NCBI RefSeq assembly: GCF_000737595.1
Contig: NZ_CP006271.1
Span: 2,480,001-2,544,000, forward strand
Reading direction: 5' to 3'
Source: Synechococcus sp. KORDI-52
GTDB taxonomy: Bacteria > Cyanobacteriota > Cyanobacteriia > PCC-6307 > Cyanobiaceae
DNA length: 64,000 bases
Shown here piece by piece: positions 37,229-46,813 of this stretch. A program made the position numbers and the translations under genes. Within the stretch, counting starts at the first letter, position 1. Each line of letters opens with the position of its first letter. A model generated the notes under the pieces. It worked only from the letters and a program-made list of their open reading frames with translations, was not told where the DNA came from and did no database searches.

Positions 37229-37302
37229 GCTCCCTTAGCTCAGCTGGATAGAGCAACTGCCTTCTAAGCAGTCGGTCGATGGTTCGAATCCATCAGGGGG
37301 CG
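37229..37302 (+). tRNA. tRNA-Arg (anticodon TCT)
   Basis: The 74-base cloverleaf has acceptor halves GCTCCCT/AGGGGGC with discriminator G, D arm AGCTCAGCTGGATAGAGC, anticodon stem ACTGC/GCAGT with loop CTTCTAA (anticodon TCT), and T arm GATGGTTCGAATCCATC. The CCA end is not encoded. Its 3' part is copied at 42758-42803, so the gene served as an integration site. Confidence 0.96.
37252..37298 (+). repeat. Left attachment-site copy within tRNA-Arg
   Basis: This part of the tRNA matches 42758-42803: a 12-base block, then one mismatch (C to G in the anticodon), another 12-base block, a small CG-to-A difference, and a final 20-base identical block (ATGGTTCGAATCCATCAGGG). It is the likely integrase core/attL region. 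Confidence 0.8.
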
Positions 37303-37453
37303 TCGCCAAAAAGCCCAGCAATAGCAGGGATTCTTACATCGAGACCAGCCTTGCTGGTTTCCGTTCATTTTGAGGATGTTTGGGCATCTTCCATGCTGTT
37401 TCCGTGCGATCTTCCGTGCAGCTCGATAGTTTCCGTGCACGGCAGTGACGCAC

Positions 37454-37591
37454 ATGCCAAAGGAGCGCGCTGACGCACAGCCTTGGGAGGCGGCACTGAA
37501 GCGTGCGATTAAGACGCAGCACAAATGGGGCTATTCGGTACGACCCATGCGCGGGAAGGTGCAAGTCGAGCGGTTTGGCACATGGCACTAG
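37454..37591 (+). pseudogene. Remnant of N-terminal domain of a phage-type integrase
   Basis: An ATG-initiated 45 aa frame (MPKERADAQPWEAALKRAIK at the start, then WGYSVRPMRGKVQVERF) looks like the N-terminal DNA-binding segment of marine-Synechococcus tyrosine integrases, ending abruptly at TAG. The rest of such a protein is not found downstream in any frame. It lies 150 bases from the tRNA attachment site, where an integrase gene is expected. The homology is from memory of such proteins and needs a search. Confidence 0.5.
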
Positions 37592-37995
37592 TGATTCTTT
37601 TAAAAGACTCACCCCCTAGAGAAACAGCAGACGCCGCCGCACTGATGGGCAAACCACCTGTGCCACCTGTGCCAGATGACTGGGAAGCCAAACGAGATTG
37701 GGCATGGAGGATGAAGGATGAATCCCTTGTGCTGAAAATTCGCGTTATCCAAGCCGCGTATCTCCGCAGGGAAAAATACTCATGTCACATGTGTCTGCAT
37801 GGCGACACCCTGTTTAAGGCCCCCCTGGAGCGAGTTATGCAATCGGATCGCTCACGCTTGCGCGAACTGGAAATACGAGTCGCACACCCTCAGCACTGGA
37901 GCGCTGGCGAACACCGCATGAACATCGAGAACCTGCGCCAATTGCAGTTCCGCCTCAGCGACCAGCCCGAGAAACTTCGCCAACGGGCTAAGTAG
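37582..37995 (+). CDS. Hypothetical protein (island)
   Basis: The 137 aa frame from ATG 37582 (or 98 aa from ATG 37699 at MKDESL) contains PPVPDDWEAKRDWAWRMKDE, a Cys-containing centre (SCHMCLHGD) and a charged C-terminus (ELEIRVAHPQHW, RLSDQPEKLR). No family is recognised. The frame is open further upstream to 37525 but would overlap the integrase remnant. Confidence 0.5.
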   Translation: MALVILLKDSPPRETADAAALMGKPPVPPVPDDWEAKRDWAWRMKDESLVLKIRVIQAAYLRREKYSCHMCLHGDTLFKAPLERVMQSDRSRLRELEIRVAHPQHWSAGEHRMNIENLRQLQFRLSDQPEKLRQRAK

Positions 37996-38096
37996 AAAGA
38001 CTCACGCAGTTGAATCTTGCCGGTCGGTGTCAGTTGGTTTTTGGCGGTAGTTCAAACAGGGCCTCATAGCTAGAACAAATAGGTCGCACAGCAGCT

Positions 38097-38330
38097 ATGT
38101 CAGACCAAGCTTTAATTAGCTTCGCAAGCGCAGTTAAGGAAGATGCAGCATTGAGAGCCATCTGTGCAAGTGACAAATGTGCTGATGTTGACGACCAATG
38201 CGATGTAGCCAAGCAGCATGGCTTTGATGTACATCCACACGATTTTGACAATTACAAAGATGGCTTACTTGTAGAACAAGCGGACGAGGACTTCTTCCTC
38301 AAACCGAAATGGTGGGAAATAGTTTCGTGA
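38097..38330 (+). CDS. Nif11-family peptide
   Basis: The 77 aa protein has the Nif11 layout: MSDQALISFASAVKEDAAL, then VDDQCDVAKQHGFDVHPHDF. Nif11 domains act as leader regions of ribosomally made, modified peptides or as stand-alone small proteins, and are expanded in picocyanobacteria. The usual GG cleavage site is absent; instead the C-terminus is acidic/aromatic (ADEDFFLKPKWWEIVS), a form I associate with stand-alone picocyanobacterial Nif11 proteins. No modifying enzyme gene lies nearby. Confidence 0.7.
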   Translation: MSDQALISFASAVKEDAALRAICASDKCADVDDQCDVAKQHGFDVHPHDFDNYKDGLLVEQADEDFFLKPKWWEIVS

Positions 38331-38421
38331 TTGCCTACAAGTTCAATTAAACAATTTCCCTCGATAGACCTAGAGAAGCAGGGTTCAAATAACCGTGGAC
38401 AACTGATGCGAACTTGCGCGA

Positions 38422-38625
38422 TTGCCGCGCAAAGCACAACAAGTGCATCTGGAGAAAACACGGCCACCGATTTGGATGGTGACTAACCAGTACGAGGGTG
38501 AGGAAACGCCAGCGCCACCTGATGACCTGGCAGTTTTCGAGCCATGGCTTGTATTCAGCTGCGAAGGCGAGCACCCAGAAGGTGACACCGGCCAAGCCAT
38601 CGGCAAACTCTGCCCATTGCAGTGA
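38422..38625 (+). CDS. Small hypothetical protein
   Basis: A 67-codon frame (TTG start, or GTG about 20 bases later) encodes VHLEKTRPPIWMVTNQYEG, then a Pro/Glu-rich, Trp-containing region (DDLAVFEPWLVFSCEGEHPE). The composition is protein-like, but the start is weak and no family is recognised. It could be the tail of a decayed gene. Confidence 0.35.
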   Translation: MPRKAQQVHLEKTRPPIWMVTNQYEGEETPAPPDDLAVFEPWLVFSCEGEHPEGDTGQAIGKLCPLQ

Positions 38626-38633
38626 ATCAGTCT

Positions 38634-38861
38634 CTATCGCGACTCAGAGGCATCTCCCTTGTACTGCCAGCGTTCTAGTCGTCTTAATTCCATGATTTCC
38701 ATTCGTCTTCTATTGGTTTCCATCTCAGCCTCACGTGCTAATTGTTCAAGTTGAGCATTTGTGCGCTTTTGGTAGTTTGAAGATACAAAAGGCATTGGGA
38801 TTAAGCAGATAGATGCGCAGAAACTAAAAACCGATGTGTAAATGGCGCGTGAAAGCGTCAT
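38634..38861 (-). CDS. Small membrane-anchored coiled-coil protein
   Basis: The 75 aa frame has an N-terminal hydrophobic helix (about 5-27; SVFSFCASICLIPMPF) followed by a charged helix (RTNAQLEQLAREAEMETNRR, then EIMELRRLERWQ). It reads as a single-pass protein with a cytoplasmic or periplasmic coiled coil. No family is recognised. It lies 37 bases downstream of the recombinase gene on the same strand. Confidence 0.5.
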   Translation of the reverse strand: MTLSRAIYTSVFSFCASICLIPMPFVSSNYQKRTNAQLEQLAREAEMETNRRRMEIMELRRLERWQYKGDASESR

Positions 38862-38897
38862 CCAACTACACCTATTCGTGTAGTTAGGTAAAGGAGC

Positions 38898-39440
38898 TCA
38901 AGCGAAGGCAGCAGCGGCAGCCTCACGCTGAGCAGGCGTCACTTCGAGATAACGCTGCAGGGCTGACATGGATTTGTGCCCAGACAGCGCCATAACCACC
39001 CGCAAGGGCACTCCAGCATTGTGTGCACTAGTTAGAGCCGAACGGCGAAAACTGTGGCTTAAGACGCCTTCTAAGCCCGATTCAGCGGCGGCCCTTTCAA
39101 GCGCATCCATAAAACTGCACGTACTCAGGCAAGAACCTGCAAATCTGCCTGGAACGAGATAGTCACCAGCCACAGGTTCACGTCCCTGCCGCACTACACA
39201 AGTAGATCTCCAAGAGCACAGGGCTTCCCACAGCTGCGGCGTAACCGGCACCGACCGACTGGCCAGCTTGCCTTTGGTGATTCCGCGCTGGAACGTAACG
39301 GCAGATTCCGAAACCATGTCCCAGGTGAGCAGCGTTGCCTCGCCAATGCGGCAGCCAGTGCGCCGACAAACCTCGGCAGTGATCTGGTGATGCTGCTCAG
39401 GCAGCTTTGAAATCAATAAATCGAGCTCGTCGGTGCCCAT
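38898..39440 (-). CDS. Tyrosine recombinase, catalytic domain only
   Basis: The 180 aa protein holds the full catalytic set of a tyrosine recombinase: Arg31 (CRIGEATLL), Lys56 (ITKGK), His129 and Arg132 (LSHSFRRSALT), His155 (SGHKS) and the nucleophile Tyr164 (LQRYLE). The N-terminal core-binding domain is absent; the frame extends only to a linker-like stretch (SNRHGQSRVM) before a stop. Similar short recombinases are known in marine Synechococcus. ATG 39440 is used, GTG 39443 is possible. It probably mobilised the tRNA-Arg element. Confidence 0.85.
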   Translation of the reverse strand: MGTDELDLLISKLPEQHHQITAEVCRRTGCRIGEATLLTWDMVSESAVTFQRGITKGKLASRSVPVTPQLWEALCSWRSTCVVRQGREPVAGDYLVPGRFAGSCLSTCSFMDALERAAAESGLEGVLSHSFRRSALTSAHNAGVPLRVVMALSGHKSMSALQRYLEVTPAQREAAAAAFA

Positions 39441-39653
39441 CACTCGACTCTGCCCGTGTCGATTGGACTTATAGCCAAGAATTCAGTGCTGGTAAGCCAC
39501 CGCGTCTTATTAGTATTTTACGCGGTGTTCATTCCTTGGGATCACAAGGCATCACGCATCCTTGCTGACCATTTCTTATGCAATTCGCTTCTTAGATGAC
39601 ACTTACTGTTATCAGCTTTGCTGAACACTTAGGGAGTAAGGCTCGGATTTCTG

Positions 39654-39803
39654 ATGTTACGGGTAAACCTCAGGGAACCTTCTCAAACAGCGCCAATTCC
39701 TGACAGACTTAATGTAGCACAGCCGACAGATAAAACACTGGGGAGTATTCAAGAAAGCGCATCTGGTCGAGATGATTACACCCTGGAACACAACAACGAA
39801 TGA
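39654..39803 (+). CDS. Possible small protein (49 aa)
   Basis: An ATG frame encodes MLRVNLREPSQTAPIPDRLN, then KTLGSIQESASGRDDYTLEH. The composition is plausible, but nothing supports expression. The rest of the gap from 39441 to 39771 is AT-rich and shows no other convincing gene. Confidence 0.25.
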   Translation: MLRVNLREPSQTAPIPDRLNVAQPTDKTLGSIQESASGRDDYTLEHNNE

Positions 39804-39993
39804 GTGGCTAGTCCTCTCACGTTGCAACCGGGTGGCAGAACAACTCTTCAGCAGAGATCGACAATCAGCCGATAAACTTGCAAGGCTTGCATGTCAACAC
39901 TGGACAATAGAAGGCATCTCGTCAGAAGAACTTAGGGACCGCAGGACTCCTGGCATGAGTGACAGACGAAGGCTCGCAAATGGAAGCAGCTAA
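39772..39993 (+). CDS. Small hypothetical phage-like protein
   Basis: The 73 aa frame (MITPWNTTTNEWLVLSRCNR, then DKLARLACQHWTIEGISSEE) overlaps the next gene by 35 bases, an arrangement common in phage early or packaging regions. No family is recognised. Confidence 0.4.
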   Translation: MITPWNTTTNEWLVLSRCNRVAEQLFSRDRQSADKLARLACQHWTIEGISSEELRDRRTPGMSDRRRLANGSS

Positions 39994-40443
39994 ACGCCAA
40001 AGGTTTAACCGCTGGAGCGTGATGAGTAACCACGAGATCAACCGCTATGACGCAATCCCGCCGCACATCATCAAGGCGCTGACGCTTTGCGCCAACGGAT
40101 CCACCTGGGCTGATGCGGCAGCTGCTGTTGGCATCAAAGGTCCTTGCCTACGTCGCTGGTATAAAGACCGCAGGCCTGAAGAGTTCATCGAAACGTTGGC
40201 ACGTGAGGACCTAAACGTCGCCAACAATTTGCTGACTTCAGCTGCACCAAGGCTGGCTGATGAACTTATCCAGATTGCGCTGGATCAGAAGGTGAGACCT
40301 ACGCAAGAACGCAAGCAATTAGTGAAAGCCTCAAGATTCTCCGGGAAAATGTTCTCGAGCAGGAGCAACGGAAACAACTACGGGAGATTCGCGAGACGTT
40401 GCAATCCATCGAAGACGGCAGCAAGCAGGCCATTGATGTTTAA
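39959..40443 (+). pseudogene. Terminase-small-subunit-like HTH gene, frameshifted
   Basis: The first frame encodes IIKALTLCANGSTWADAAAA, a helix-turn-helix (VGIKGPCLRRWYKD) and a long helix (AREDLNVANNLL, then APRLADELIQIALDQ). At about 40288 the natural continuation moves to another frame: ETYARTQAISESLKILRENV, then REIRETLQSIEDGS and stop TAA at 40441. The joined product resembles HTH or terminase-small-subunit proteins of cyanobacterial prophage remnants. The loss of one base around CAGAAGG explains the break. No slippery heptamer is present. Confidence 0.6.
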
Positions 40444-40509
40444 CTCTGCGATGTAATCATGTGAAAAGAAAAGCCCCAGATCATTGGGAGCCGAGGCTTG
40501 ATCTTTTAT

Positions 40510-41019
40510 CTAATAGAAGCTCCAACGATGGTGATACTTCGGTCGCATGTGGCTGTATGACGGCATCCTCGAATAAGTCGGCCTTCTTGTGTATGAGGAC
40601 CGTCTGTAATGAAAAGGTCTATGACCCGTTAAGTAACTTCCAGTGATCTGTTTGGGAAGTATGAGACCGTCGCGTGGGTCATCTGTCTTCAAGATAATAT
40701 CTTCGATGGTGAAGTCACTTGTGTCATCATGATGTCCATTGCTCTTGATATTGACATCCTGGCCCCTAGAAACAAAATCAGCCGGGGGAGGACTGTAGGC
40801 ACCACGGAAACCACCTACTGAACCTCCTGATGTTCGATTGACAGGCTTCGCGGTTAAAACTTTCCTGACAGGATCAGCAACAGCTTGAATTGCACGATGT
40901 GGCTTTCTAATAGTGGCTTTTGTTCCTGCTACTGGATCACATAACCAACAAGCTTCTGCTGGTTGAGGCAACCCAGATATCGATATACCAGCAAGCACAA
41001 GACCAAGAAGAAGTTTCAT
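40510..41019 (-). CDS. Secreted protein with Tyr/Arg/His-rich C-terminus
   Basis: The 169 aa protein has a signal peptide (cleavage probably after AEA near residue 23), a Cys pair just behind it (CWLC), a Ser/Gly linker (TSGGSVGGFRGAYSPPP) and a C-terminus of Tyr, Arg, His and Ser repeats (RRSSYTRRPTYSRMPSYSH). It is probably exported; the aromatic/basic tail might bind polysaccharide or DNA, but that is a guess. No family is recognised. Confidence 0.6.
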   Translation of the reverse strand: MKLLLGLVLAGISISGLPQPAEACWLCDPVAGTKATIRKPHRAIQAVADPVRKVLTAKPVNRTSGGSVGGFRGAYSPPPADFVSRGQDVNIKSNGHHDDTSDFTIEDIILKTDDPRDGLILPKQITGSYLTGHRPFHYRRSSYTRRPTYSRMPSYSHMRPKYHHRWSFY

Positions 41020-41190
41020 TGTTGGGCCGCCAAATATGAGGACCTTTACAGAATTACCTAGATGTACTCGGTCTTGATTGATTCAGGTCATGCACTGCTG
41101 TGATCTTGGTCACGCTAATTCACTTCATCCATGATCAATGCATGTCTGTCGTTATTGCAGATGGCTATCTAGCCAGGAGTCTTCTGCTGT

Positions 41191-41558
41191 TTGATTCATG
41201 GTTGGCGCTCCAACTTCCGTGCACTGAACCCAGCGGTGGCGCAGCAAGCCGAAATGCTGCTGGGTGGTCCGTTGAGCTTGGCGCTGCAAGCCGCAATGGA
41301 TGCAAGCGAAACCCTCTCGGTTGACTGGACCGCGAACTCTCGATTCGGCGCCCTGCGCTGCACGAGCAGCTGCGCCAGGAAGCAATGCAACGTGCCATCG
41401 ACCAAATCGGCGAGAACCGCAAAGCAGAAGCCGAACGCAGGGCTGCCAACACCCCAACACCCGCACTGTTGGCTGAGCAGCTGCATCGGTCAAAGCAGCA
41501 GGCGATTTACGAGCTGAGGGGCAACACTCACCCGCTGGACCGACGCAATGATGTTTGA
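41191..41558 (+). pseudogene. Degenerate phage-like gene
   Basis: A first segment (ALNPAVAQQAEMLLGGPLSL, bases about 41215-41310) appears to continue, after a frame change near 41325, into RPALHEQLRQEAMQRAIDQI, then ENRKAEAERRAANTPTPALL and ELRGNTHPLDRRNDV, ending at TGA 41556. The second frame could also be a separate gene starting at ATG 41385 (57 aa). Its end overlaps the ATG of the next gene. Confidence 0.4.
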
Positions 41559-41715
41559 GAAAGCCGTCAACCGCCTTGCGGCTAGTTGGCACGTTCACCT
41601 GCCAAAAGCAGACGTACTCGCCTCAGCCCAGCGAAAGCGCTACCTGCGGCTGGAACGGGAGCGGTTGCTGACGTCCGCTGGCAAGCCAGTAGCAAGTGAT
41701 GCGCTGACCCGTTGA
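41548..41715 (+). CDS. Small basic protein (55 aa) containing repeat copy 1
   Basis: The frame MMFEKAVNRLAASWHVHLPK, then RKRYLRLERERLLTSAG overlaps the preceding stop (AATGATGTTTGA), an arrangement typical of coupled phage genes. Its Arg-rich segment is encoded by a 41-bp sequence that recurs exactly at 42165. The function is unknown. Confidence 0.45.
   Translation: MMFEKAVNRLAASWHVHLPKADVLASAQRKRYLRLERERLLTSAGKPVASDALTR
41635..41675 (+). repeat. 41-bp direct repeat, copy 1
   Basis: Starts AAGCGCTACCTGCGGCTGGA and ends GCTGACGTC; identical to 42165-42205, with weaker similarity upstream. It lies in the same coding frame as the KRYLRLERERLLTS segment in both copies. Confidence 0.9.
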
Positions 41716-41975
41716 GCCCAGACGTACGACTGCATTGCTCGCAGTTGATTTGCAACGCTGAGATCGGCGAGGTCACCTCTGGAAGAGCAGTGGCTTCGTT
41801 CGCAAAAAAAATGCTCCAATTACGGAGCGAGAACGTAATGCCGTGGAAATCCCACATCACCCGGCCTAATCACCACATTTGTGGCGTTGTGTCGATGATA
41901 GTCGAATGGTTTTGTATCCGCTAGGCACTAGATGGAGCAGTTTATGGGGGTTACTTTAGGAACCCCCATCACCCG

Positions 41976-42001
41976 GCCTGTCCCAGTGACAGGCTTTTTT
42001 G
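41976..42001 (+). terminator. Intrinsic terminator in the element
   Basis: A 7-bp stem GCCTGTC/GACAGGC with loop CCAGT is followed by six T. A second palindrome just upstream (ATGGGGGTT and AACCCCCAT, 41944-41969) may add strength. It would end transcription of the 41.2-41.7 kb genes. Confidence 0.75.
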
Positions 42002-42098
42002 TTGGCGAAACACCACAGCTGGCGGTGGGGACCAAGTAACTCTTCAAGCCGCTTCAGGAGCCCAGCCAGCCTCAGTACGCCACGTTGGCGCCCAGAGC

Positions 42099-42467
42099 TT
42101 GCATCTCTTCTTGAGGTGGGTCGCCCTGCGCCACCTGGCATTGTCTGTGGTTGAAGCCCAACACAAGCGCTACCTGCGGCTGGAACGGGAGCGGTTGCTG
42201 ACGTCGGTGGGGACTGCGACTGATGAGCGTTTAGTGGAACGCTCAGTAGGTGAGGCTTCCAGATGCCTAGAGCAGCTCAAAGTTGCAGCTCAAATCTTTG
42301 ATACCCCTAAACAAAACCGGTCCTTCAAGCCTGTAGATCGACAGCACCTCACCTGCGATATCTGGTTCAGTGTGTGGAAAGGGGGGTGGCTGTTGAACAT
42401 CAATGCGATAACGGTGTGCTGTGGTGATTCTCCAGACTTCAGGCTCATCCTCCAACCAGAGGACTGA
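42099..42467 (+). CDS. Hypothetical protein carrying repeat copy 2, possibly decayed
   Basis: The 122-codon frame (TTG start) contains VALRHLALSVVEAQHKRYLR, in which the KRYLRLERERLLTS part duplicates the protein at 41548. It then runs into SVGEASRCLEQLKVAAQIF and a Trp/Cys-containing end. It may be a partial duplicate fused to unrelated sequence. It is convergent with the small lipoprotein gene, 9 bases apart. Confidence 0.35.
   Translation: MHLFLRWVALRHLALSVVEAQHKRYLRLERERLLTSVGTATDERLVERSVGEASRCLEQLKVAAQIFDTPKQNRSFKPVDRQHLTCDIWFSVWKGGWLLNINAITVCCGDSPDFRLILQPED
42165..42205 (+). repeat. 41-bp direct repeat, copy 2
   Basis: Exact copy of 41635-41675, 530 bases downstream, in the same orientation. 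It marks an internal duplication of the element. Confidence 0.9.
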
Positions 42468-42476
42468 CGCGTGTTC

Positions 42477-42629
42477 TCAGGCAGATTCAAGATTGACCGT
42501 CGCTGAGATCACTGGTTCCTTCGTGTTGGCAAAGCAAGCCATTTGAAAGGACTTGCCAGACCTCAGGATGGGATCGCCGCTACAGCTGGCGAGCACGAGT
42601 AGGGGCAGAAGCAGGAACAGTCGTTTCAT
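42477..42629 (-). CDS. Small lipoprotein (50 aa)
   Basis: ATG 42629 opens a 50 aa frame with a Lys/Arg start, a Leu-rich signal (KRLFLLLPLLVLASC) and lipobox LASC, then SGDPILRSGKS and CFANTKEPV. This is a classic tiny bacterial lipoprotein. It has a single additional Cys after the anchor. The function is unknown. Confidence 0.65.
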   Translation of the reverse strand: MKRLFLLLPLLVLASCSGDPILRSGKSFQMACFANTKEPVISATVNLESA

Positions 42630-42757
42630 ATTCCAAGTTTGGGTCTAGTCCAGGGACTGGCGGCTTCGTGCAACTACTGGAAACAACGAGCAGGGCTGAG
42701 ATCAATCTTCCGTGCAAACACAAAAAATTGGCTGAAATCCCTTGCCGAGAAGCGGCA

Positions 42758-42803
42758 AGCAACTGCCTTGTAAGCAGTCGGTAATGGTTCGAATCCATCA
42801 GGG
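42758..42803 (+). repeat. Right attachment-site copy (tRNA-Arg 3' fragment)
   Basis: It matches 37252-37298 of the tRNA-Arg gene in three identical blocks of 12, 12 and 20 bases. The upstream sequence has no D arm or acceptor strand, so it is a fragment, not a tRNA. Here the anticodon loop reads CTTGTAA. It is the likely attR, giving an element of about 5.5 kb. Confidence 0.8.
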
Positions 42804-43162
42804 AGCGGCTCAAAAGGCCACGCAAGCCATGCGTCGTGCAAGTGTGCCGAATGCTGACTGCGGGTCGCACCAGAAGCTCAGCCGGCAAGATGGCCAACGC
42901 ACCCCAAAATTTTGCAGACAGCGACGATTGCTGCATGATCAGTTGAAGACTCGATGTTTTGAGGCACTCGACCATGGGCAATCAGATGAGAAGCAAACCT
43001 CAAATACTCGATTCAATTCGGACCATTTGAATGAAGATGGAATACATCTTTTTTGTTATGCCTTCATGTCGACTTTGTAGCTCCTTGACGTTCGCCTGAA
43101 CTCGTACTGGACGAAGAACCTGAAAAATTTTCTACCACAAAAGAGGAATCATGCCCAATCAA
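42804..43162. other. Gene-poor stretch after attR
   Basis: Reading frames here are short and lack protein-like composition on both strands. I see no gene in it. Confidence 0.5.
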
Positions 43163-43650
43163 TCAAAAGCGCTCATCACTCCTATCAACCTTTGCTTTTA
43201 GAGCTTCGATCTCCTTGCGTAGGTCATCTTCGGCTGAGCCCTCAGCATCGTAAGCACGGGCTCCTCGGAACATCAATCCACCACCCGAGGCAATCATCAC
43301 AATGAAAGCAATGAGTTGCCAAAGAGTTGTAGAGCGGAACTCAATCTGAATACTGCTCAAAACTCCCGCCAATAATGCAGCAAGGGATGCCCAGATGAGC
43401 AGATTCGCCCAACGCCGATATGTTCCCGCAAAAAGCATGCAGACACCTATGCCCAGAGGCACCATGAGCAGGCCCATCCCTGATGTACCGAACAGGAATG
43501 AGAGCCCCCCCATCCCCCGCGATAGCCGGAGATCCACTCGCTTCTAACGAGAACTTGATTGGAAAGCAAAAATCCTCCTGCGCCAAACAAGCATGCACCC
43601 ACCAAAAATTGACTGAAATCTCCAAATGCATTTGTGCGGGGCATGGGCAT
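43163..43650 (-). pseudogene. Small membrane protein, frameshifted at a poly-G tract
   Basis: From ATG 43650 the frame reads FGDFSQFLVGACLFGAGGFL, LSNQVLVRSEWISGYRG and then loses sense. The continuation in another frame is GGLSFLFGTSGMGLLMVPLG, then RRWANLLIWASLAALLAGVL, STTLWQLIAFIVMIASGGGL and a charged end (RKEIEALKAKV). Together they give about 160 aa with four membrane helices, like a known family of small bacterial membrane proteins. The break falls at G5-AT-G7 (minus strand; C runs at 43505-43511 and 43514-43518). It could be mutation, sequencing error or phase variation. Confidence 0.6.
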
Positions 43651-44066
43651 GGAGCTGCTATGGCAAGGATTGCCGTCAAGGCATCAACTGGCAACTGTGA
43701 TGACACGATCTCTTAGCAGCAAGAGCCTGCCAAGGGCCAATGTCGAGCCCCGGGAACCCCATCAAATCGCTTCACATGCTTGGAGCACGGACAGCAAGAC
43801 TCAGCGGGGGAAGCAAATGATGCGCCGTATGGACCAGCCCCATGCCAGTGCCAAGGCCTGAACTATCAGCCTTGATCGAAGCGCAAGAACACCAACAGCC
43901 AGATCACCGTCGGCACGATCTGAGCCATTTAAAAAACTGGGGAAGGGTCACGAATCAGCCCGTCAATCGGTCCGCTTTTCATGCATTTATCAGCGAACAT
44001 CCTTAATAGAAAAGATTAATCACGTCAATAGAACAGGAAAGAAAACACAAAACCCAAAGGGGTCAA
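43651..44066. other. Intergenic stretch without recognisable gene
   Basis: Only short frames are present, including a 20-codon hydrophobic minus-strand frame near 43870-43930 (MAQIVPTVIWLLVFLRF), which is too short to call. The sequence turns AT-rich from about 43960. Confidence 0.5.
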
Positions 44067-44309
44067 ATGAGTTCATTGCCTGCAAATCAGGCGATCAAAA
44101 TAGCAAAAGTCGCACTCAAAAACAGATTAACTGATCAGCGAAATAGGGAGTTTGGCAAAATCTCAGAGCAGATTCCAGGAATATCAGAGTTAACAGTATC
44201 AAGGACAAATGCCTTTCAGCACTCTTGCAAATGGCATATCTTGCCAGTCAATATCAATATTCAACGTCCCATTCAGAGCGACTTTCTTTCAATAACTTCT
44301 GTCAGATGA
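44067..44309 (+). CDS. Small hypothetical protein
   Basis: The 80 aa frame begins after a purine-rich AAAGGGGTCAA and reads MSSLPANQAIKIAKVALKNR, then REFGKISEQIPGISELTVSR, which looks protein-like. The last third runs into the 3' end of mscL on the other strand and is less convincing. No family is recognised. Confidence 0.4.
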   Translation: MSSLPANQAIKIAKVALKNRLTDQRNREFGKISEQIPGISELTVSRTNAFQHSCKWHILPVNINIQRPIQSDFLSITSVR

Positions 44310-44656
44310 GCCATGGCAGCAGCAAGCTGCGCCTGCGGATCCGGCTGCGCTTCCTCAATCACCTGCTTTTTGCGTTTCGCAGCTTCAATAGATTGGACGA
44401 TCACAAAACACACAAAGGCAATCGCAATAAAGTTAATAAGAGCAACCAGCACAAGGCCGGCGGGCAACTCTGCGATTGAACTCACATTAGCTTTTTCCAA
44501 GGCCGGCTCCAATGCATTTGTCATGACCAAGGTCACAACTGAATTCACAACCTCCTTAAATGCGCCAGCAATAATCACAGCAATTGCCAGATCAACAACA
44601 TTGCCCTTACTGATGAAAGCTTTGAAAGCAGAAATAAACGAGAGCGGTCTTGACAT
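44273..44656 (-). CDS. mscL: Large-conductance mechanosensitive channel MscL
   Basis: The 127 aa channel releases solutes under hypo-osmotic shock. The start (FKAFISKGNVVDLAIAVIIA) contains the family N-terminus and pore-lining helix. The second helix is LVALINFIAIAFVCFVIVQS, followed by a basic cluster (AAKRKK) and the C-terminal helical bundle (LAAAMAHLTEVIERK). The periplasmic loop is short. It sits in an AT-rich zone without related neighbours. Confidence 0.92.
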   Translation of the reverse strand: MSRPLSFISAFKAFISKGNVVDLAIAVIIAGAFKEVVNSVVTLVMTNALEPALEKANVSSIAELPAGLVLVALINFIAIAFVCFVIVQSIEAAKRKKQVIEEAQPDPQAQLAAAMAHLTEVIERKSL

Positions 44657-44712
44657 TGCGATGGTTTATAAACTGATCACTTATAGCTGCAAGACCAGTT
44701 CTCAGCAACTTC

Positions 44713-44943
44713 TCACACTCCAGCCCTGAGTGGAAACGATGGAAACGATGGGAACGTCATCGATCGATGAAGGAGAGGTATTGCATCCGCAAACATGATG
44801 CAGTGGCCCTCTGCTATCGAGATTAAGCATTTATACTCTTTTGCCATCAAGCCCAAAGAAGCGCTCACCCACCCACCACACAATTCAATCAAGAACAGAC
44901 ACAGGACCACAAAAACGAGCAGAAAGCTCTCCAGCTCACCCAT
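44713..44943 (-). CDS. Possible small membrane protein
   Basis: The 76-codon frame starts MGELESFLLVFVVLCLFLIE, a good single membrane helix, but the rest is low in sense and its end runs through a 9-base tandem repeat (TGGAAACGA, 44731-44756). It may be a real short protein with a decayed end or a chance frame. Confidence 0.3.
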   Translation of the reverse strand: MGELESFLLVFVVLCLFLIELCGGWVSASLGLMAKEYKCLISIAEGHCIMFADAIPLLHRSMTFPSFPSFPLRAGV

Positions 44944-45025
44944 TTCTCAGCTATTTCTCACACAGCACTCATCCAGCATAAAAAGGATTGAAGAGAATTG
45001 AAGAAGAGACGAGTGAGACAGGTTC

Positions 45026-45211
45026 TTGACCTCTACAAAATTAGTTGCACAACGGGTCGCAACAGCCTACGCACAATACAAAGTTCACCCATGCATGGCG
45101 AACAAAGTCGCGCTCAATTCAAGCCTTGACATCTTGGCAAGTCTCTTTGATGAATGCGATGAAAACATTGAAACATCCAGCACTACGGAAGATTTCGGCC
45201 TTAATTTTTAA
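45026..45211 (+). CDS. Small protein, member 1 of a paralogous pair
   Basis: The 61 aa frame (TTG start) reads LVAQRVATAYAQYKVHPCMA, then LNSSLDILASLFDECDENIE. It shares a pattern with the protein at 45775: A-x-AY-x2-Y-x2-HP, N, L-x3-L-x2-L-x2-LF. The pairing supports a real protein despite AT-rich, ORF-poor surroundings. It is probably a short helical hairpin; the function is unknown. Confidence 0.5.
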   Translation: MTSTKLVAQRVATAYAQYKVHPCMANKVALNSSLDILASLFDECDENIETSSTTEDFGLNF

Positions 45212-45774
45212 TTTACATTTTAGCAGCACAGCTAGCAGCTGAGCTGCAGTATTAACTATTTAGCTTAAAATCGAAGGTTTAATCACATTACACTTGATTC
45301 TCTACACATTTGATGCAAACTGAGCTCTTTTTTGCAGCCAAATCGATAAGCTAATCTTTTTAAAATCTTGAATAATTACAATTTTTGGCTTGCACAACCA
45401 ATATTCTAATTGAGCAGAAATTCCCCGAGAACCGACACACAAAATCGTATATGTGACAACAAGCATCTAAATCACCCACTCAAATACGCTTATGCTGGCC
45501 ACAGTCAACTTAAAATATTGTCACACGTAATAACAAAATCTTGTTACTCTCATTGATCCAAAATTAAATTCCATGGCTAGCAGCCCTTCGCCAAGAAGAA
45601 CTCCCAAGACGAGCTTTGGACGCCAGCAGGTCTAACTAAATTGACCCTCACAAGAAGATTCACTCCTGAAATTAAGATCAAAATCCTATCTTTTTACTAT
45701 TCGAATCTAATAAATCTCTCAGGCAATGCACACGCATAACAAGTAATATTTAGAAGTGACAAAAGTCCTGCGTT
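45212..45774. other. AT-rich stretch without recognisable gene
   Basis: This 563-base stretch is clearly AT-rich compared with the flanks and has no frame with protein-like sense. It could hold untranslated leader or small RNA sequences, but no hairpin with a T-run was clear enough to call. Confidence 0.5.
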
Positions 45775-45933
45775 GTGTCTAAGAAATCAATCAAATTAAA
45801 AATAAAAGAATTGGCAGCAGCTTACATCCGTTACAGGCATCACCCCTCCCTCGAAAACAACAAAACCCTTATAGCCAGACTAGAACACCTTGAGAAACTT
45901 TTTACAAGGCAAGAAAACAAGAATAAAAAATAA
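45775..45933 (+). CDS. Small basic protein, member 2 of a paralogous pair
   Basis: A GTG-initiated 52 aa frame reads KIKELAAAYIRYRHHPSLEN, then TLIARLEHLEKLFTRQENKN. Over about 40 residues it aligns without gaps to the protein at 45026, sharing AY, Y, HP, N and the Leu/Phe heptad-like positions. No family is recognised. Confidence 0.5.
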   Translation: MSKKSIKLKIKELAAAYIRYRHHPSLENNKTLIARLEHLEKLFTRQENKNKK

Positions 45934-46425
45934 AATCCATCCACGTGAATGCAGTCAGACTTAAAAATATAACGACAACCTGGGCTAAAATAAACAATAC
46001 GATTAACATCTAAGCTGAACCAAGATCAACCTCAATCACTTTTTGACCTAGAAGAAACAGGAAATACAATTGGCACAGCATTTGCGCTTTGTAGCTTGTT
46101 GGTCTTCACCCAAGCGAGCGGGAGCCAAAAAACTACTTCAATCCTACATTCTAATTACAAGCTACATGCAAAAAGGGAAGAAGGGTAGGTAATATCAAAA
46201 TCCTTGCATCAAGTCCAAGCCAAATCTGGTCGAGAATCAATTCATCATGAACACAATCTCCTGTGAAGTCGTTGTCGGGCAACATGCATTAGAGATCTGC
46301 CAATACAGATCCGAAGCAGATTGAATGAAAACTTCTTCATCATTCACGATAAAGATTTGGTGGGGAGCACCAATAAGGCCGCAGTCTGAGGAAATCGCTC
46401 GATACAAGCACACAAAGTCCTGAAT
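45934..46425. other. AT-rich stretch with an open frame lacking a usual start
   Basis: A 57-codon open frame (CTG 46015 to TAG 46186) encodes NQDQPQSLFDLEETGNTIGT, then AFALCSLLVFTQASG, with one hydrophobic helix. No ATG, GTG or TTG precedes it before an in-frame stop, so it is not called as a gene. The remainder shows nothing recognisable. Confidence 0.4.
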
Positions 46426-46476
46426 ATGTCTCTTTTGCTACCCCGAATCGTCAACAAACGGAGCCATAACACAAAG

Positions 46477-46719
46477 ATGGCGCAAACCAATCTTATGACT
46501 CAAGCAGAGCTGATTGTGCAGACCCCCCGAGGCTCATCCATTCAAAGAACCAAAGATGGCCAATTTCTAGTGTGCAATGCAGAGAACCAGTGCAATCTCA
46601 CCCACAGCCTTTATCTTGCTGAGGAAGAACTCTCGGGAATGGAGCACGGTTTCACATTCCCCTACGCAACAAATTTCCGTAACAGCACATTGCCGGCAGA
46701 CCTCATCGACTCCGAATAG
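46477..46719 (+). CDS. Small hypothetical protein
   Basis: From ATG 46477 the 80 aa frame reads MAQTNLMTQAELIVQTPRGS, then QRTKDGQFLVCNAENQC and an acidic end. The frame is open to 46426. Two Cys occur six apart. No family is recognised. Confidence 0.5.
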   Translation: MAQTNLMTQAELIVQTPRGSSIQRTKDGQFLVCNAENQCNLTHSLYLAEEELSGMEHGFTFPYATNFRNSTLPADLIDSE

Positions 46720-46813
46720 AGACATCAACGTTCCATCACCGAGGAGTCACAAAGCTAGGACCCATAAGTCGTTTACCTCCAGGCAGCTTGCTTCAAGCGT
46801 CAGACACGGTTAC

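Follow-up and report, generated by a model that had tools for sequence, protein, structure and literature searches.

A decayed satellite-like element at tRNA-Arg(TCT) of Synechococcus and its putative recombinase-palindrome module

Introduction

Downstream of a tRNA-Arg(TCT) gene of Synechococcus sp. KORDI-52, the 3′ half of the same gene occurs a second time, and a gene for a small tyrosine recombinase lies between the two copies. Which enzyme made this arrangement, and on what does the small recombinase act? We analyzed a 64,000-nucleotide stretch of the closed 2.57-Mb genome around this locus (hereafter designated the window; G000:C1:2480001-2544000, counted from its first nucleotide) by comparison with related genomes and loci, which carry our own G and L numbers. 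A preliminary description, written from the nucleotide sequence of the window, had interpreted the interval as a small decayed element of about 5.5 kb integrated at the tRNA gene between attachment sites attL and attR, with the small recombinase as the integrating enzyme. Our analysis upholds the element and not the enzyme. We consider it probable (about 85%) that a satellite-like element was inserted by its own integrase of 414 amino acids (aa) and then decayed, and that the small recombinase acts on a palindrome of its own. The att-flanked tRNA element is in itself ordinary and of a known kind; for the module of recombinase and palindrome, no description was found in the literature searched.

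Results

The element has an intact tRNA gene at one end and, at the other, a displaced 3′ fragment of it in the same orientation, as expected of a genomic island.

37229-37302, plus strand: tRNA-Arg(TCT) (ARAGORN), intact; the target gene, presumably regenerated by the element.
37252-37302, plus strand: predicted attL core, from the anticodon stem-loop of the tRNA to its 3′ end, delimited by the identity block with downstream copies.
42758-42807, plus strand: predicted attR, the displaced and decayed tRNA 3′ half with four differences (blastn and comparison with relatives).

The duplication, noticed earlier as identical blocks of 12, 12 and 20 bases, was found again in those blocks between 42758-42807 and the tRNA gene and stands far above chance: the window contains its anticodon-stem part exactly two times, where shuffles predict 0.00 occurrences, and blastn over the whole genome returned the 3′ copy at 86% identity over 70 bp (E ~1e-14). 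In G003, G029, G005, G020, G014 and G009, the attL core and the downstream copies are 100% identical over 51-55 bp, and the tRNA-Arg 3′ fragment in G262 begins at the anticodon loop.

Two genomes of the same genus, G003 and G029, carry the same element at the same tRNA-Arg, in G029 as two tandem units. Comparison of the syntenic loci by blastn revealed that the window, G003 and G029 have both element ends in common (85-93%), namely ~275 bp adjoining the tRNA and ~150 bp leading up to the 3′ copy; in G003 and in the first G029 unit, this copy shows 100% identity over 54-55 bp. Moreover, a precise empty site was recognized, in that the DNA after the G003 copy matches the DNA directly 3′ of the tRNA in G033 (92%), G010 (85%) and G025 (84%). 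Because the element ends are conserved in relatives and the empty site is matched, the interpretation of the two tRNA copies as attL and attR of an element inserted at the tRNA is strongly supported. The empty site could not be reproduced with the right flank of the window itself; the expectation that, in an empty strain, the sequence after 42804 would directly adjoin the tRNA failed, 42808-46411 being present in no close relative searched. Among 31 genomes, a second tRNA fragment lies downstream of tRNA-Arg in at least 15 (in the stretches fetched), which marks this locus as a likely integration hotspot. At L030, L031 and L037, this tRNA-Arg is used by other integrase lineages, whose integrase genes lie not beside the tRNA but at the opposite end of the island.

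In the intact relatives G003 and G029, a gene for a 414-aa tyrosine recombinase adjoins the tRNA, and G027 (Synechococcus sp. AG-683-C23) carries a 409-aa integrase, 62% identical, in an intact ~10-kb element. The 414-aa protein was missed by Pfam and is labeled integrase by PHROGs. Its structural model comprises three domains, an N-terminal one of β-sheet, a helical one and the catalytic one, and can be aligned with lambda integrase over 380 columns. Of this cognate integrase, the window retains only a fossil, accompanied by putative arm-type repeats.

37359-37439, plus strand: five left arm-type repeats, at 37359 (TTCCGTTCA), 37389 (TTCCATGCT), 37400 (TTCCGTGCG), and 37412 and 37431 (both TTCCGTGCA), at the same five positions in G003, G029 and G027.
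37454-37579, plus strand: fossil of the 414-aa integrase, the first ~42 codons with the arm-binding part (tblastn against the G003 integrase).
42645-42757, plus strand: right end of the element, including one arm-type repeat, TTCCGTGCA, at 42708-42716; 87-89% identical to the corresponding ends in G003 and in the two G029 units.

The fossil matched residues 1-41 of the G003 integrase at 97.6% and residues 1-42 at 95% in tblastn; after residue 42, the window jumps to sequence that is placed far downstream in the related elements. Three of its six repeats are intact, two of them on the left. In both G003 and G029, direct repeats of TTCCGTGCA (one left copy reading TTCCGTGCT) follow the tRNA at five matching distances, with one more near the right end, and in G027 all six positions read TTGCGTGCA, a switch from C to G. 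In another genus, G262 has a 61% identical integrase after its tRNA-Arg 3′ fragment, with TTGCGTGC-type repeats at similar spacing. We infer that these repeats are arm-type sites and have coevolved with the integrase. An internal TTCCGTGCA at 41215, considered as a remnant element end, was left as a probable chance occurrence.

Thus, a cognate integrase lies inside the intact elements of G003, G029 and G027, and in the window it is reduced to a 42-codon fossil. On comparative grounds, the small recombinase between the repeats is very probably not the enzyme that made them, contrary to the preliminary description, which had contained neither the integrase fossil nor the arm-type repeats nor the palindrome described below.

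39499-39526, minus strand: dif-like 28-bp palindrome ACCGCGTAAAA-TACTAA-TAAGACGCGGT, putative core site of the small recombinase (comparison of upstream regions).
38898-39470, minus strand: small tyrosine recombinase, catalytic domain only (PF00589, E=1.6e-19), with orthologs ~90% identical; the start codon was lost by a gap of ~17 bp and the frame is otherwise open.

The recombinase reading frame noted earlier, at 38898-39443, is real and retains all catalytic residues (R, K, H, R, H and Y), which, as R42, K67, H140, R143, H166 and Y175, are invariant in 31 aligned family sequences. The copy in the window is under weaker constraint (ratio of nonsynonymous to synonymous change, pN/pS, of 0.25-0.29, compared with 0.15 for the pair G003 and G029); of the changes private to it, 20 are nonsynonymous and 19 synonymous. 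Family members are mostly 182-203 aa long and consist of the catalytic domain, with neither an arm-binding nor a core-binding domain; since simple tyrosine recombinases are composed of a core-binding and a catalytic domain (survey, PMC8138268), this family is unusual. The same module also occurs in elements beside tRNA-Ser(TGA), tRNA-Pro(TGG), tRNA-Arg(CCT) and tRNA-Ala(GGC), and because it is found at these several other tRNA genes, the small recombinase would not set the integration site. Among the matches listed for phages, only distant recombinases with ≤32% identity were found, and the viral contigs gave a single match of 23%.

The palindrome was found upstream of the gene in 10 of the 11 close family members. 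Its consensus in these is ACCGCGTAAAATNNNNATAAGACGCGGT or nearly so, with fixed arms and differing centers, and a genus-wide search of 34 genomes detected a single copy in each element and none elsewhere; none was found in viral contigs. A perfect match of the outer 7 bp occurs in 6 of 11 upstream regions, compared with 0.9% of shuffles, and a score of 6 or 7 in 10 of 11. The distant members G074, G260, G256 and G201 have other outer arms, which are again palindromic at the same 28-bp length. A site of 11-6-11 architecture beside a recombinase gene is the arrangement of Xer/dif modules. Furthermore, the two G029 elements are identical from the palindrome center to the stop codon of the recombinase and only ~70% alike in the 60 bp left of the center; this identity break, a single case, is suggestive of an exchange within the center. 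More distant members of the recombinase family at L140, L141, L143 and L144 share a 25-bp palindrome, GTTGCTC...GAGCAAC, which stands just upstream and likewise has variable centers.

FimB/FimE-type recombinases are also catalytic-domain enzymes of about 200 aa, which act on two inverted sites and flip a promoter. They resemble the present family in being small catalytic-domain enzymes and differ in that here there is one palindrome per element. An invertible segment at the small recombinase was considered and rejected, as all elements compared have their flanks in the same orientation, with no sign of flipping.

The intact elements are arranged in the order integrase, Xis-like gene, primase/helicase gene (of DUF3987 or D5 type), small recombinase, 84-aa gene, terminase-small-subunit (TerS)-like gene and variable cargo, the small recombinase gene pointing away from the 84-aa and TerS-like genes. 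The combination of integrase, excisionase or regulator, and primase found in G003, G029 and G027 indicates that the intact elements are satellite-like. In the window, the integrase gene beyond ~42 codons and the Xis and primase genes are deleted, so that this copy appears to be dead, with excision by its own integrase presumably no longer possible. Its remaining parts are as follows.

38097-38330, plus strand: 77-aa Nif11-like peptide, possible cargo (PF07862, E=1.3e-4, below the cut-off).
38395-38625, plus strand: small conserved element protein of a 76-aa family (tblastn, 47% to L016:12781-13011).
39772-39993, plus strand: member of an 84-aa protein family in the recombinase-TerS module (71% over residues 1-68 in tblastn).
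39980-40443, plus strand: terminase-small-subunit-like gene in two frames, frameshifted near 40297 (phrog_7344 with the intact G003 ortholog, E=4.9e-5).
41635-41675, plus strand: 41-bp repeat, copy 1, also in related elements.
42165-42205, plus strand: 41-bp repeat, copy 2, also in related elements.

The frameshifted TerS-like gene bears out the phage-like genes that had been noted before. Both copies of the 41-bp repeat were seen directly; the repeat recurs in G003, in both G029 units and in other related elements and thus belongs to the element family and is no accident of this locus. The Nif11 match is weak, its score of 22.6 bits falling short of the 23.8 cut-off. Of 201 family genomes, 23 contain homologs of the TerS-like protein. 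Neither the integrase nor the TerS-like protein had relatives in viral contigs, and no TerS relative was found in phages. Among the cargo of the G003 element is a gene of the PAP/fibrillin family (plastid-lipid-associated protein; L016:12175-12768), odd for a satellite-like element, and in G029 a long open reading frame that resembles terminase by eye only, with no match in Pfam or PHROGs, directly follows the first att copy (L017:7901-8671). A 79% copy of window positions 38657-38891 was observed in a second island of the genome (L049:7215-7454; G000:C1:1462214-1462453), near a recombinase with a 215-aa frame and tRNA-Pro and tRNA-Lys genes.

42808-46411, strand not assigned: genome-unique DNA, including mscL, that separates attR from the conserved host flank and is no part of the element in relatives; homology resumes at 46412-46787.

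This 3.6-kb segment contains an mscL gene (44273-44656) and small open reading frames in place of the host gene that usually follows the tRNA. It had no match in the genus genomes searched and only short hits in two distant genomes, and the usual host gene had no match anywhere in this genome. Because of these two findings, the right flank of the window appears to have been rearranged, later than the insertion. A third tRNA fragment, sought at ~46.2-46.8 kb downstream of attR, was rejected, as the alignment scores were no better than those of shuffles.

Discussion

We propose the following history. A phage-satellite-like element would have entered tRNA-Arg(TCT) by means of its own 414-aa lambda-type integrase, which would bind the five left and one right arm-type repeats (TTCCGTGCA); the exchange, placed by the identity blocks in the anticodon loop, would have let the attP of the element restore the tRNA and displaced the former 3′ half to attR at 42758. 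Decay would then have followed through the large deletion, the frameshift in the TerS-like gene and the loss of the start of the small recombinase. The latter, an enzyme of ~190 aa, would act on the single 11-6-11 palindrome just upstream of its own gene, its probable role being the resolution of multimers of the excised, replicating satellite, which a helper phage may package; alternatively, it may swap modules. Multimers of plasmids are resolved in this manner by Cre/lox and Xer/cer. The small recombinase and its palindrome may accordingly be likened to a private Xer/Cre-like system for multimer separation or module swapping.

An origin of the tRNA fragment in a chance or ancient duplication, with no link to mobility, can hardly be entertained: although identity is as low as 86% for the copy in this genome, several relatives have perfect copies of 51-55 bp, precise empty sites and ends conserved on both sides, the comparison of G003 with G033 refutes it, and the plain-site genomes G010, G025 and G033 show no second fragment in the stretches examined. 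It is also highly improbable that the small recombinase is the integrase that made the att sites. Its location between the repeats and its full set of catalytic residues had favored this reading, whereas the intact relatives have a separate integrase touching tRNA-Arg with its arm repeats, the module accompanies four other tRNA genes as well, and the protein lacks the arm-binding and core-binding domains.

Two further explanations concern the palindrome. It may be a transcriptional operator or a hairpin in the 5′ untranslated region of the small recombinase gene rather than a crossover site, as is suggested by its position between divergent genes, 30-80 bp ahead of the recombinase start; covarying arms would fit an RNA stem or a repressor site as well. 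The fixed 28-bp length, the AT-rich inner arms and the freely varying center are, in contrast, traits of an 11-6-11 site, and the identity break of G029 falls in the center, so that we regard this explanation as unlikely, though deserving attention. Rather doubtful is a second integration system, with the palindrome as attP: integrase genes usually adjoin attP, but the palindrome is present in a single copy per element, and searches of the genus genomes (≤2 mismatches) and of the loci retrieved (≤6) found no attL/attR pair.

Several points weigh against the proposed history of a satellite-like element with its own integrase and a palindrome-specific recombinase. The TerS assignment is weak (phrog_7344, E=5e-5; weak fold matches to TerS and phBC6A51, none under 1e-3), and no helper phage was found in the phage and viral collections searched. 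One of the eleven close members, G280, lacks the palindrome, which could be an operator or mRNA hairpin; neither excision product nor activity was observed; and the window beyond 42807 is without counterpart in relatives.

Among known systems, the element is close to tRNA-integrated genomic islands of the Islander type (PMC4383910), with which it shares the regenerated tRNA, the displaced 3′ fragment at the far end, the integrase beside the tRNA, a probable anticodon-type exchange and, in G029, tandem units; unlike these, the window has lost its cognate integrase and keeps a recombinase of another kind. Tycheposons of Prochlorococcus (Hackl et al. 2023, as described in citing papers) likewise are picocyanobacterial, tRNA-borne elements with a tyrosine recombinase and satellite-like genes; the integrase of the present element is too divergent for detection by Pfam. 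Membership among them is plausible. The phage satellites PICI and PICMI share the integrase, the excisionase-like gene, the DUF3987 primase/helicase (as in PICMI) and, tentatively, the TerS-like gene, terS being among the packaging genes of other satellite families (PMC10803314); the present element differs in its added catalytic-domain-only recombinase and private palindrome, in its hosts and in having no known helper phage. Integrases at tRNA-Phe/Cys of picocyanobacteria (PMC10187409) share the host group and the tRNA association, with a different tRNA.

As for the palindrome, dif sites comprise 28 bp, namely two 11-bp arms and a 6-bp center, and the XerS gene adjoins its own site (PMC5357621). 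XerS/difSL, XerH/difH and XerA/dif (PMC5357621) thus resemble the present module in combining one recombinase with a palindromic site of two ~11-bp arms. Unlike them, the recombinase here lacks the core-binding domain that, with the catalytic domain, makes up the Xer architecture (~190 aa against 356 aa for XerS) and resides on a mobile element.

An integrase/attP pair is now defined whose putative arm-type repeats changed together between lineages. Beyond this, we see an even chance that the ~190-aa recombinase family, carried next to a TerS-like gene on satellite-like elements of marine picocyanobacteria together with a dif-like site of its own, 28 bp long with covarying arms and a freely varying center, constitutes a minimal Cre/lox-like system that monomerizes satellite genomes or swaps modules between co-resident satellites. 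If so, a minimal recombinase with a single palindrome rides picocyanobacterial satellites at several tRNA genes, providing both a site-specific enzyme of very small size for study and a specific means by which satellites may stay monomeric or trade modules.

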